A DNA stretch of 64,000 bases from a bacterium (GTDB lineage Bacteria; Zhuqueibacterota; Zhuqueibacteria; Residuimicrobiales; Residuimicrobiaceae): assembly GCA_029565685.1 (NCBI GenBank), contig JAKQNR010000008.1:41493-105492 (forward strand). The letters run 5' to 3'. The notes beneath the pieces were generated by a model. That model saw only the letters and a list, made by a program, of their open reading frames with translations. It had not been told where the DNA came from and searched no databases. Below, piece by piece: positions 30,988 through 35,058 of this stretch (positions within the stretch are counted from its first letter, which is position 1; every line of letters starts with the position of its first letter). The position numbers and the translations under genes are program-made.

Positions 30988-31060
30988 GGCGCGTTCGTCT
31001 AGGGGTCTAGGACACCGGCCTCTCACGTCGGTAACACGGGTTCGAATCCCGTACGCGCTA
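30988..31060 (+). tRNA. tRNA-Glu (anticodon CTC)
   Basis: A 73-nt cloverleaf: acceptor GGCGCGT / ACGCGCT (one G-U pair), anticodon stem CCGGC / GTCGG with loop CTCTCAC (anticodon CTC), T arm ACGGG-TTCGAAT-CCCGT. The 3' CCA is not encoded. It reads GAG codons. Confidence 0.95.
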
Positions 31061-31084
31061 CGCTGTCACCGCACTGGTTTGTCC

Positions 31085-31161
31085 GCGCCCGTAGCTCAAC
31101 TGGATAGAGCATCTGACTACGGATCAGAAGGTTGGGGATTCGAACTCCTCCGGGCGCGCCA
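31085..31161 (+). tRNA. tRNA-Arg (anticodon ACG)
   Basis: Perfect acceptor GCGCCCG / CGGGCGC, anticodon stem TCTGA / TCAGA with loop CTACGGA (anticodon ACG), T loop TTCGAAC, discriminator G, and an encoded CCA at 31159-31161. The wobble A34 must be deaminated to inosine by TadA to read CGU/CGC/CGA. The tadA gene starts 19 bp downstream. Confidence 0.95.
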
Positions 31162-31179
31162 GAAGGAAAGGCTCTTGCC

Positions 31180-31659
31180 GTGCAGGATCACGCCGATTGG
31201 ATGGCCTTGGCCCTCCGCGAAGCGGAAAAAGCGTTTGACAAAGGGGAAGTGCCGATCGGTGCGGTGGTAATTCATCAAGGCCGCATCGTCGGCCGCGGTC
31301 ACAACATGATGGAGACGCTGCAGGATCCGACGGCGCACGCCGAAATGCTGGCCATCACCTCGGCCGCCAACACGCTGGCGTCCTGGCGGCTGGAGGGGTG
31401 TGTCTTGTATGTCACCCTCGAGCCTTGTATCATGTGCATGGGCGCCATTCTCTTATCACGCATTCCCACCATCGTTTTTGGAGCTCAGGATCCCCGCTAC
31501 GGCGCTTGCGGCGGTGCGATTCAGCTTGCGCAGCACGAGCGGATCGACGTGCATACGAACGTGATCCGCGGCGTGGCCGAGGCCGAGTGCAGCGAGCTGA
31601 TCAGGCGTTTTTTCCAGCAGGTCCGTAGGGAAAAGACGAGCCGACGCGACGCAGGCTGA
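31180..31659 (+). CDS. tadA: tRNA-specific adenosine deaminase TadA
   Basis: A 159-residue zinc deaminase that converts A34 to inosine in tRNA-Arg(ACG). The active-site HAE motif is TAHAEM and the zinc cysteines are in LEPCIMCMGAI. DPRYGACGG and FGAQDP are family segments. The start is GTG at 31180 with AAGGA about 12 bp upstream; the open frame extends back into the tRNA-Arg gene but has no plausible start there. It lies inside a stable-RNA cluster between its own substrate tRNA and two tRNA-Ser genes. Confidence 0.95.
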   Translation: MQDHADWMALALREAEKAFDKGEVPIGAVVIHQGRIVGRGHNMMETLQDPTAHAEMLAITSAANTLASWRLEGCVLYVTLEPCIMCMGAILLSRIPTIVFGAQDPRYGACGGAIQLAQHERIDVHTNVIRGVAEAECSELIRRFFQQVRREKTSRRDAG

Positions 31660-31679
31660 AGCGGACAGTAAAACGAGCA

Positions 31680-31767
<88 letters not shown>

Positions 31768-31815
31768 AACCCGGTGGGATGTTCATTCAAAGGGCGATGA
31801 CCGCCGAGTCAATTA

Positions 31816-31902
31816 GGAGAGGTGTCCGAGAGGCTGAAGGAGCACGCTTGGAAAGCGTGTGTAGGTTTACGCCTACCGCGGGTTCGAATCCCGCCCTCTC
31901 CG
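31816..31902 (+). tRNA. tRNA-Ser (anticodon GGA)
   Basis: An 87-nt type II tRNA with acceptor GGAGAGG / CCTCTCC, anticodon stem CACGC / GCGTG with loop TTGGAAA (anticodon GGA), variable arm GTAGG..CCTAC, and discriminator G. The acceptor stem is identical to that of the upstream tRNA-Ser. Confidence 0.95.
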
Positions 31903-31923
31903 CAGGTGTTATAGAGCAAGTAT

Positions 31924-31996
31924 GGGGCTGTAGCTCAGCTGGGAGAGCGATACGTTCGCAACGTATAGGTCGTGGGTTCGAATCCCATCAGCTCCA
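31924..31996 (+). tRNA. tRNA-Ala (anticodon CGC)
   Basis: A 73-nt cloverleaf: acceptor GGGGCTG / CAGCTCC (one G-U pair), anticodon stem ATACG / CGTAT with loop TTCGCAA (anticodon CGC), T loop TTCGAAT, discriminator A. No encoded CCA. Only 4 nt separate it from the SRP RNA. Confidence 0.93.
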
Positions 31997-32000
31997 CAAT

Positions 32001-32311: not shown

Positions 32312-33943
32312 ATGTCGTACCTGGTCCTCGCGCGCAAGTATCGTCCCATGTTTTTCGATGACGTGGTGGGGCAGCAGCATGTCACCCACACGCTGCAGAA
32401 TGCCATCCGGCAGAACCGAATCGCCAACGCTTATCTTTTTTCCGGTCCTCGCGGCGTGGGTAAAACCACGGTGGCGCGCATTTTAGCCAAAGCGCTCAAT
32501 TGCGATCAAGGTCCGACCGTCACCCCCTGCAACCAGTGCTCCTCCTGCATCGAGATCAACGAAAGCCGCAGCCTCGACGTGTTTGAGATCGACGGCGCTT
32601 CCAACCGCGGCATCGATGAAGTACGCAACCTGCGTGAAGGATTGCGCTACTCCCCCACGCCGGGCAAATACCGCATCTATATCATCGACGAAGTGCACAT
32701 GCTCACCAACGAGGCGTTCAACGCGCTGTTAAAAACCCTGGAAGAACCTCCGCCGCAGGTGCTCTTTGTCTTTGCCACCACCGAAGCCCACAAGGTGCCG
32801 GCCACTATTCTCTCTCGCTGTCAGCGGTTTGATTTCAAACGCATGAGTGTGAAAAAAATCATGGAACAGCTGGCTGAACTGTGCCGGCAGGAAAATATCG
32901 AAATCGAGGAAGAGGCTCTGCGGATGATCGCAGTGAAAGCAGACGGCAGCATGCGCGATTCACAGAGCGTCCTGGATCAGATCATCGCCTATGCCGGCGA
33001 CACCGTCTCGGCGCAAGGCGTGGCCGCTCTGCTGGGCATCATCGACCAGCAGCTGTTCTTTGAGGTGACTGATCTCATTCAATCCGGGGACGTGCTGGCG
33101 GGTGTGCGCCTGGCCAGCCGTATTTTTTCCGAGGGCTATGATTACAGTGAATTCATGATCGGATTGCAGGAACATCTACGCAATTTTCTCGTCGTCGCAG
33201 CCACCGGTTCCCCGGCCGAGATCGACGCTTCGGAGGAGAGCAAGGGGCGCTATTTGGCGCAAAAAGACGCCTTTTCGGTGGAGGACCTCTTAAGGCTGAC
33301 GAAAATCTGCGCCGATGCGGAAAATCTCCTGCGCCGCAGCGCCAACGCCCGCCTGCATTTGGAAGTCACCATCGTCAAGCTGATCAAGCTCAACCGCAGC
33401 GTGCGCCTGTCGCAGCTTTTAGAGCAATTGGATGTAAAAAAAAACCCTAATTTAGAAACCGGCCTCGCTGCCGGCCCACCGCCCGTTCCGCCCAGCGCGG
33501 CTGTCGCAAAGCCGCACTCTATTGCCGCAGCGGCCCCGCCGGCGCCCAGCGCTGGTGCAAAAATCACTCTGGCTGAGCTGGAGGCCCGCTGGCCGGAGAT
33601 CACCGATCACATCAAAAAGACCAGAATCGCGCTTGGCGCCCTATTGAGTGAAAGCTGGCCGCTGAGCTTGGCCGACAACCGGCTGGAGATCGGCTTTGCC
33701 CCGCACAATGGGTTCAGCATCAGCTCGCTGGAGGCCAACCGGGAACAGGTGCAAACCCTGCTCTTCGACCTGCTGGGCGTGCGCCTGCAGGTCTCCGGAG
33801 TGCGTGACGCCGAGGGACGCGTACCGAAAAATCCCAACGCCGTTCTGCCGTCCGACCGCAAACGCGAATTCGAAAAACTGGCGGAAGAGAATGAATTGAT
33901 TAAAAAAATTGTTGATACCTTTGATACGGAATTTTTGAAATGA
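32312..33943 (+). CDS. dnaX: DNA polymerase III subunits gamma/tau
   Basis: A 543-residue clamp-loader ATPase. Walker A is GPRGVGKTT, the zinc module has cysteines in LNCDQG and CNQCSSC, Walker B is IIDEVHML, the SRC sensor 1 motif is in ILSRCQRF, and domain III ends near residue 370. A Pro/Ala-rich linker (about 385-415) and a C-terminal tau domain follow. An A9 run at codons 375-378 marks a probable frameshift or transcript-slippage site that would make a shorter gamma-like product of about 379 residues. No clear ribosome site precedes the ATG; the gene follows the SRP RNA directly. Confidence 0.96.
   Translation: MSYLVLARKYRPMFFDDVVGQQHVTHTLQNAIRQNRIANAYLFSGPRGVGKTTVARILAKALNCDQGPTVTPCNQCSSCIEINESRSLDVFEIDGASNRGIDEVRNLREGLRYSPTPGKYRIYIIDEVHMLTNEAFNALLKTLEEPPPQVLFVFATTEAHKVPATILSRCQRFDFKRMSVKKIMEQLAELCRQENIEIEEEALRMIAVKADGSMRDSQSVLDQIIAYAGDTVSAQGVAALLGIIDQQLFFEVTDLIQSGDVLAGVRLASRIFSEGYDYSEFMIGLQEHLRNFLVVAATGSPAEIDASEESKGRYLAQKDAFSVEDLLRLTKICADAENLLRRSANARLHLEVTIVKLIKLNRSVRLSQLLEQLDVKKNPNLETGLAAGPPPVPPSAAVAKPHSIAAAAPPAPSAGAKITLAELEARWPEITDHIKKTRIALGALLSESWPLSLADNRLEIGFAPHNGFSISSLEANREQVQTLLFDLLGVRLQVSGVRDAEGRVPKNPNAVLPSDRKREFEKLAEENELIKKIVDTFDTEFLK
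33436..33455 (+). other. Probable programmed slippage site in dnaX (A9 with stops in both other frames)
   Basis: Nine A residues (33436-33444) give in-frame GTA AAA AAA AAC, containing the canonical heptamer A AAA AAA. A -1 shift reads AAA CCC TAA and stops at 33450. A +1 shift reads ACC CTA ATT TAG and stops at 33455. Any length change in the A run therefore terminates the protein within four codons, right after domain III. Confidence 0.75.
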
Positions 33944-33955
33944 GCAGGAGTTGAA

Positions 33956-34303
33956 ATGATGAACAAAGGCGCCATGTCGGGATTGCTGAAACAAGCGCAA
34001 AAGATGCAGGAAGAACTGGCCAAAGCGCAAGCCGCACTGGCGGACCTCAGAGTCATCGGCAGCGCCGGCGGCAATATGGTGACGGTCACTGCCAACGGCA
34101 GTCAGGAAATTCTCCAAATCAAGATCGATCCGGAGGTGGTTAATCCGCAGGATGTGGAGATGTTGGAAGATTTGGTGCTGGCCGCGGTGAACCAGGCGCT
34201 GGTCAACTCCAGAGCCGCGGCCGAGGAACAGATGGCCAAGGCCACCGGCGGTTTTAATCCCGGCGACATGCTGGGTGGTCTGAAAATCCCGGGGCTTTCT
34301 TGA
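33956..34303 (+). CDS. YbaB/EbfC nucleoid-associated protein
   Basis: A 115-residue YbaB-family DNA-binding protein. The N-terminal helix SGLLKQAQKMQEELAKAQAAL and the core GSAGGNMVTVTANG and LQIKIDPEVVNPQD.EMLEDLV are typical. The C-terminal tail is Gly/Met-rich. It lies between dnaX and recR, its conserved place in many bacteria, consistent with a role near DNA replication or repair. Confidence 0.93.
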   Translation: MMNKGAMSGLLKQAQKMQEELAKAQAALADLRVIGSAGGNMVTVTANGSQEILQIKIDPEVVNPQDVEMLEDLVLAAVNQALVNSRAAAEEQMAKATGGFNPGDMLGGLKIPGLS

Positions 34304-34357
34304 TGAGACCGAGCGCCGACATCCAGTCCAGCTGTATGTTCTGCGAGCCAAGTGGCC

Positions 34358-34954
34358 ATGCGCTATTATTCTGAAACCGTGGAGCGGGCCATCCATGAGC
34401 TGGCCAAGCTGCCCGGCATCGGTCGCAAAACCGCACAACGGCATGTGTTCTATCTGTTAAAAACTTCTGCCGCTGAGGTGGACTCGCTGTCGCAAGCGCT
34501 GCTGGACCTCAAACGCAAGGTGGGCTATTGTTCGATCTGCTACAATATCACCGAACAAGACCCCTGCCCCATCTGTAGAAGCGAACAGCGAGACCGGTCG
34601 ACGATCTGTGTGGTGGAAGAGGCCAACGACGTGCTGGCGTTTGAAAAGATCGGGGAATATAAAGGCCTGTACCACGTTTTAGGGGGCGCACTCTCGCCCC
34701 TGGACGGCATCGGGCCCGATGATCTGAAAATCAGGGAATTGCTCGCCCGTTTGCAGAACGACGTCAGAGAGGTGATCATCGCCACCAATCCCAGCACTGA
34801 GGGTGAAGCGACCCTCTTTTACTTGACCAAACTCATCAAACCTCTGCAGATCAAGCTATCGCGCATCGCTCAGGGCATTCCCATGGGTGCAGATATCGAA
34901 CACGCCGATGAGGTCACTCTGTCCAGAGCTTTGGACGGGCGCCTGCCGTTATAG
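34358..34954 (+). CDS. recR: Recombination mediator RecR
   Basis: A 198-residue protein. The helix-hairpin-helix LAKLPGIGRKTAQRH is at the N-terminus, a four-cysteine zinc finger follows (CSIC...CPIC), then the Toprim domain (ICVVEEANDVLAFEK) and the C-terminal SRIAQGIPMGADIEHADEVTL. RecR forms clamps with RecO/RecF that load RecA on gapped DNA. The ATG at 34358 is preferred to a GTG two codons upstream (34352); the ribosome site is weak for both. Confidence 0.96.
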   Translation: MRYYSETVERAIHELAKLPGIGRKTAQRHVFYLLKTSAAEVDSLSQALLDLKRKVGYCSICYNITEQDPCPICRSEQRDRSTICVVEEANDVLAFEKIGEYKGLYHVLGGALSPLDGIGPDDLKIRELLARLQNDVREVIIATNPSTEGEATLFYLTKLIKPLQIKLSRIAQGIPMGADIEHADEVTLSRALDGRLPL

Positions 34955-35058
34955 TTGTCCCCGCAGAATCGTTTTTATCTCTTGCCTTTATGCTTTTTTT
35001 TTATAATATTTTAATTTTATTATAACAAAATATGGACAGGCAGACAAAAAGGAACCTG

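Follow-up and report, generated by a model that had tools for sequence, protein, structure and literature searches.

How a single dnaX gene comes to specify two products, tau and gamma, has more than one answer among bacteria. In Thermus thermophilus, dnaX is subject to transcriptional slippage (Larsen 2000, as described in the available passages of PMC1088944 and PMC5009743). In Escherichia coli, as far as the available parts of PMC5009743 and PMC3711429 describe it, dnaX undergoes a −1 ribosomal frameshift at A_AAA_AAG, accompanied by a hairpin and an upstream Shine-Dalgarno-like sequence. In Caulobacter crescentus, the short gamma is formed by proteolysis of tau and not by frameshifting (PMC5009743, in part). 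The window analyzed here, the whole stretch of 64,000 nucleotides, contains a dnaX gene with nine consecutive adenines (A9) inside its coding sequence, which raises the question of what this run does. Judged from sequence, the A9 is probably a programmed transcriptional-slippage site that makes both tau and gamma, as in Thermus. The relevant features of the window are as follows.

32312..33943, + strand: dnaX open reading frame, zero-frame product (tau) of 543 residues; NCBIfam TIGR02397 dnaX_nterm, 463.9 bits (cut-off 250)
32312..33427, + strand: codons 1–372, encoding the ATPase, lid, and domain III (Pfam PF13177, PF22608, and PF12169, the last at residues 232–372), common to tau and the predicted gamma
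33436..33444, + strand: A9 run, read GTA AAA AAA AAC, the predicted slippage site, kept in relatives
33448..33450, + strand: TAA, stop of the −1 frame (AAA CCC TAA), which would terminate A7, A10, and A13 transcripts
33453..33455, + strand: TAG, stop of the +1 frame (ACC CTA ATT TAG), which would terminate A8, A11, and A14 transcripts
33548..33805, + strand: tau-only C-terminal domain (Pfam PF20964 DnaX_C, residues 413–498), a weak match under its cut-off (22.4 bits against 26.2; E 1.3e-4)

The three N-terminal domains and the curated dnaX model are all matched by the window gene. The A9 begins within the codons from 375 on, and a Pro/Ala-rich linker lies between the end of domain III at residue 372 and the C-terminal match from residue 413. 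Because domain III ends there and the weak tau C-terminal match starts only at 413, the A9 sits at the border between the part shared with gamma and the part specific to tau. The original prediction, that the run is followed by stops in both alternative frames and lies after domain III ahead of a Pro/Ala linker, is therefore borne out, with positions 33436–33455 spanning the run through the +1 stop. An uninterrupted run of at least nine A's at the domain III/tau border and near stops after it in both non-zero frames are the marks of a Thermus-type dnaX, and both are present in the window gene. Its surroundings are five tRNA genes (Glu, Arg, Ser, Ser, and Ala) at 30988–31997, directly 5′ of dnaX, and, at 33956–34954 on its 3′ side, two open reading frames (115 and 200 residues) that from gene order may be ybaB and recR, after which a T9 run occupies 34994–35002.

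In the proposed mechanism, RNA polymerase would insert or lose A's at the run. Transcripts with A9 or A12 would yield tau of 543–544 residues, and other counts would run into the nearby TAA or TAG and yield gamma of 378–382 residues. The computed products for A6 to A12 are 542, 378, 380, 543, 379, 381, and 544 residues, so that the gamma of about 379 residues proposed at the outset has the correct length for an A10 transcript. Gamma would presumably then be produced in a useful amount and used in the clamp loader.

As a fact about a single genome, an A9 is weak evidence. The window holds five A9 matches where 0.9 are expected, and the whole genome has 148 overlapping matches; a script placed 19 of 30 genomic A9 loci, nine of the 19 inside an open reading frame of at least 150 residues. 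Elsewhere in this genome, an apparent single 473-codon open reading frame (loci L159 and L160) contains two A9 runs, and is possibly another slippage gene or merely an AT-rich one. The run in dnaX rises above chance because it is conserved across relatives.

A sample of 22 genomes from the same order gave dnaX across the site in 20; G004 and G019 had no dnaX match at E 1e-60, and the genes of G014 and G021 were obtained through split or weaker matches. All 20, the window genome and 19 relatives, have A9–A10 at codons 371–377, and a −1 stop follows 1–8 codons away in all 19 genomes whose zero frame encodes tau (tau-first genes). Within the family, the A9 and a −1-frame TAA two codons on are found in 5/5 members, with the codon ahead of the run and the bases after it varying. 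The phylum was sampled with 82 genomes, of which 75 have dnaX and 74 are readable, since the contig of G073 stops ahead of the site (the raw tally of 28/75 without a run entered this gene as run-less, and the gene is also part of the tally with the 80 named loci considered below). An A9–A11 run lies in the linker of 47/74. It is present in every readable member of families f1–f6, f9, f12, f16, f19, f22, and f23, in part of the members of f8, f11, f18, and f20, and in no member of f7, f10, f13, f14, f15, and f21. In G051 (f10), A8 stands at the equivalent codon, and the longest linker A run in the other genes without an A9 is 2–7. The original prediction had named interruption by AAG codons or missing stops in relatives as evidence against it; the site withstands this within the order, and the 27 of 74 phylum genomes without a run show that it does not extend to the whole phylum. 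The absence of the run from these 27 suggests that gamma, or this route to gamma, is dispensable there. No general substitute ribosomal site was found in the 27 readable run-less genes, only G040, G051, and G065 having an in-frame X_XXY_YYZ (Y = A or T) with a −1 stop within 10 codons. One relative, G017 (locus L009), has two A10 runs in the same dnaX, at codons 377 and 384, seven codons apart.

Long A runs are concentrated in one part of the gene. In the 75 phylum genes, the stretch up to about codon 355 (78,258 bases) contains no run of nine or more A's, codons 355–435 (17,723 bases) contain 48, and the remainder (31,167 bases) contains 3; the same regional count gave no T9+, G9+, or C9+ run. 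The stops in the other frames accompany the run. In the 44 tau-first run genes of the phylum (a count that excludes G060, G021, and G027), the median stop distance is 3 codons in the −1 frame and 5 in the +1 frame, against 16 and 24 for linker positions sampled from run-less genes. Relative to a local linker null, family means were below 0.5 in 16/16 families for the −1 frame and 14/16 for the +1 frame (sign tests 1.5e-5 and 0.002). In the window, the string after the A9 is CCCTAATTTAG, with the −1 and the +1 stop within a few codons. Similar strings (CTCTAA then TTAG) follow the A9 of L300, L302, L303, L311, and L003, so that they occur, with that of the window, in both phyla sampled.

The second of these is the phylum of Pedobacter, and the trait reaches it and some others. 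Of 593 named loci in a scan that left out near relatives, the best 80, all from other phyla, were compared, and a run lies 15–130 codons past residue 340 in 20 of them: Bacteroidota 15/20, Chlorobiota 1/1, Ignavibacteriota 2/3, Thermodesulfobacteriota 1/6, Verrucomicrobiota 1/8, Bacillota 0/18, and others 0/24. In a FastTree of dnaX, the window's own phylum falls next to Bacteroidota, Ignavibacteriota, and Chlorobiota. For the Pedobacter phylum, 128 evenly drawn genomes yielded 126 dnaX genes, and the site can be read in 125; the contig of G180 (locus L355) stops ahead of it, and this gene was entered as run-less in the raw tally (32/126) and included in the tallies made with the 200-gene FastTree. 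An A9–A11 run is found in 94/125, and no A9+ occurs in 127,734 bases of codons 1–340. Median stop distances are 2 (−1) and 5 (+1) codons in 58 tau-first genes against 14 and 31 without a run.

The remaining 36 run-bearing genes of the Pedobacter phylum are gamma-first: read in the zero frame they stop as gamma, and tau requires a shift, into the −1 frame for 35 and into the +1 frame for one (L248). In L327 and L330, the tau frame is open up to the end of the available DNA. Three of the 20 run-bearing named loci (L085, L089, and L097) are likewise gamma-first, with A10, and in the window's own phylum so are G021 (L174) and G027 (L140), in both of which tau is in the −1 frame and the zero frame stops 2 and 23 codons past the run, respectively. 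In the two samples together, all 38 gamma-first genes have at least nine A's, and none of the 58 readable run-less genes has a split frame, the 31 of the Pedobacter phylum all having a long zero frame. L100, from an uncultured member of the Bacteroidales outside both samples, was considered as a split frame without an A9+ run and rejected, for its C-terminal part lies in the same frame past a TAG; this first stop is at the domain III border, and read-through, error, or loss of tau are candidate readings of it.

The gamma-first layout is that of the 17 predicted two-ORF dnaX genes from 12 genera, making tau only by recoding, that the available portion of Antonov et al. 2013 (PMC3711429) describes. 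There, nine of the 17 have A10 and hence likely share the same mechanism, others have only 7 or 8 A's, and 5/17 lack a poly-A stretch, which means that a run of nine is not generally required. The window gene is a single tau-first open reading frame, so a search for ORF-to-ORF frame transitions would presumably miss it. It resembles the T. thermophilus gene, to the extent that the cited sources describe that gene, in its sense-strand A9, its zero-frame tau, its near stops in both frames, and the presence of two lysine tRNAs. It differs in belonging to another phylum, in slippage being predicted from sequence, and in having relatives with runs up to A11 and a shifting codon phase. The genome encodes tRNA-Lys UUU (L194) and CUU (L196), for AAA and AAG; the available text of PMC5009743 suggests this two-tRNA state as maybe relevant to slippage in Thermus, where it is an accompanying rather than a defining trait of such genes.

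The strongest alternative, though an unlikely one, has the ribosome produce gamma by a −1 shift on A_AAA_AAN, as in E. coli; the long run would be a very slippery site for it, and a hairpin would be unneeded. An in-frame A_AAA_AAN heptamer is present inside 47/47 phylum runs, and the −1 stop lies closer to the run than the +1 stop in 28 of the 44 tau-first genes. In available passages of PMC3711429, frameshifting reached 10, 40, and 63% in E. coli cassettes of another gene whose runs had 7, 9, and 11 A's, the shares of polymerase and ribosome not being separated, and those two-ORF dnaX genes described there that have only 7 or 8 A's also suit a ribosomal site. The bias of tau toward the −1 frame (35/36 and 2/2) is predicted equally well by −1 ribosomal shifting, and slippage accounts for it only if single-A insertions dominate. 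The conservation of +1 stops, on the other hand, agrees with slippage and disagrees with −1 ribosomal shifting, and a heptamer needs only seven A's where the gamma-first genes of both samples have nine or more. L248 (G172) also speaks against the ribosome, since −1 shifting could not produce its +1-frame tau; it is the only gamma-first gene seen with this layout, and its layout possibly comes from an assembly error.

The signals around the site bear on the same choice. E. coli and window dnaX would be alike in giving two products per gene, the short one ending just past the poly-A site, as the E. coli gene is described in the sources cited. The window gene differs in having A_AAA_AAC and in lacking the upstream motif and any unusual downstream structure. 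In-frame A_AAA_AAG is absent from the site in the window and from 16/20 order sites; according to the available part of PMC5009743, a heptamer ending in AAC is less prone to shift in E. coli. The downstream 50 nt are no more structured than other parts of the gene (mean percentile 0.62, n = 47, in the own phylum; 0.54, n = 94, in the Pedobacter phylum), and in the window the 50 nt from +4 show no stimulatory hairpin (percentile 0.54 of its own gene). The GC-rich linker folds there at −19.4 kcal/mol over 60 nt and −35.7 kcal/mol over 100 nt, lengths other than the 50 nt at which the comparison within the gene was made. No Shine-Dalgarno-like sequence about 10 nt upstream stands out in the window (percentile 0.49), nor does its 22-nt upstream segment hold a strong motif; such motifs occur at 7/47 and 12/94 sites, 17 of these 19 at only 0–4 nt from the run. 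A hairpin or Shine-Dalgarno sequence as stimulator is thus not supported, and only mild upstream signals are left. Anti-Shine-Dalgarno pairing upstream of the run is in mild excess over other parts of the gene, which would favor the ribosome (mean percentile 0.39, KS p 0.014, in the own phylum; 0.36, p 1.1e-5, in the Pedobacter phylum), with no significant difference from run-less genes (p 0.31 and 0.07). Upstream 50-nt structure is also stronger than elsewhere (0.41, p 0.048; 0.34, p 1.2e-6), and against run-less genes the values are p 0.65 and 0.008. The initial preference for a Thermus-type site is supported by the unremarkable downstream structure, the conserved +1 stops, and the two tRNA-Lys species, and the polymerase is clearly favored over the ribosome.

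It is quite improbable that nothing slips and that the run merely reflects a conserved basic lysine patch after domain III with AAA as the favored codon. Lys-Lys-Lys is common at the site, and under a synonymous-codon null 16.1 of the 47 runs would be expected, with P of 0.016 for the window and 0.003 to 0.85 across the 47 genes. These values are not tiny, so for AAA-rich genes the run by itself is weak support and other controls weigh more. Clusters of Lys-Lys-(Lys/Asn) reach A9 or more in 45/47 cases in the linker against 2/21 elsewhere in the same genes (Fisher 1e-12, kinship ignored), although 10/21 of the latter reach A8. The run is conserved while both its phase and its peptide change: phases 2, 0, and 1 number 30, 7, and 10 among the 47 genes, and the peptide over the run may be VKKN, LKKK, QKKS, or EKKN. 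G022, G027, and G032 retain the A9 with 2–4 AAA against 11–13 AAG codons, and the run is accompanied by near stops in both frames.

Least probable of all is a phase-variable tract at which DNA replication slippage toggles cells between the two layouts, for although one A or one base separates some relatives (L346, A9 and gamma-first, from L341, A10 and tau-first; L344 from L354; and G027 from G032, a tau-first member of its genus) and a FastTree of 200 genes requires at least 17 layout changes among the 141 run-bearing genes, the longest run is only 11, dnaX is a core replication gene, the tract is kept throughout the order, and the 17 changes fall below the mean of 33.6 (lowest 30) for shuffled labels, so that layout is largely inherited. 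Presence of the run changes at least 20 times on the same tree, against a shuffled mean of 51.4.

Programmed slippage of RNA polymerase would give the window gene a place among known routes to gamma. The C. crescentus case, as partly available in the source cited above, is alike in that the short gamma derives from the tau gene product and differs in that it does so by cleavage. No published report of such a dnaX site in this lineage was found by title or abstract, a search that did not use the phylum name, and neither the two-phylum extent nor conservation of the second stop nor recurrent flips were found in titles, abstracts, and some passages of the literature.

There is about an even chance that dnaX is as a rule read by slippage of RNA polymerase across the window's own phylum and that of Pedobacter. 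The frame of the DNA would then hardly matter, one-base changes would flip the gene repeatedly between tau-first and gamma-first, and the run and the stops of the unused frames would be under selection. Where there had been a single proven case, that of Thermus, plus 17 two-ORF genes known from prediction, there is now a trait whose presence, absence, and frame flips can be traced over about 200 genomes. The purpose of gamma becomes a comparative question of which lineages do without the site and what else changes alongside. A dnaX gene whose frame is broken at an A run, finally, is thereby suggested to be more likely a functional gene than a pseudogene or an error.
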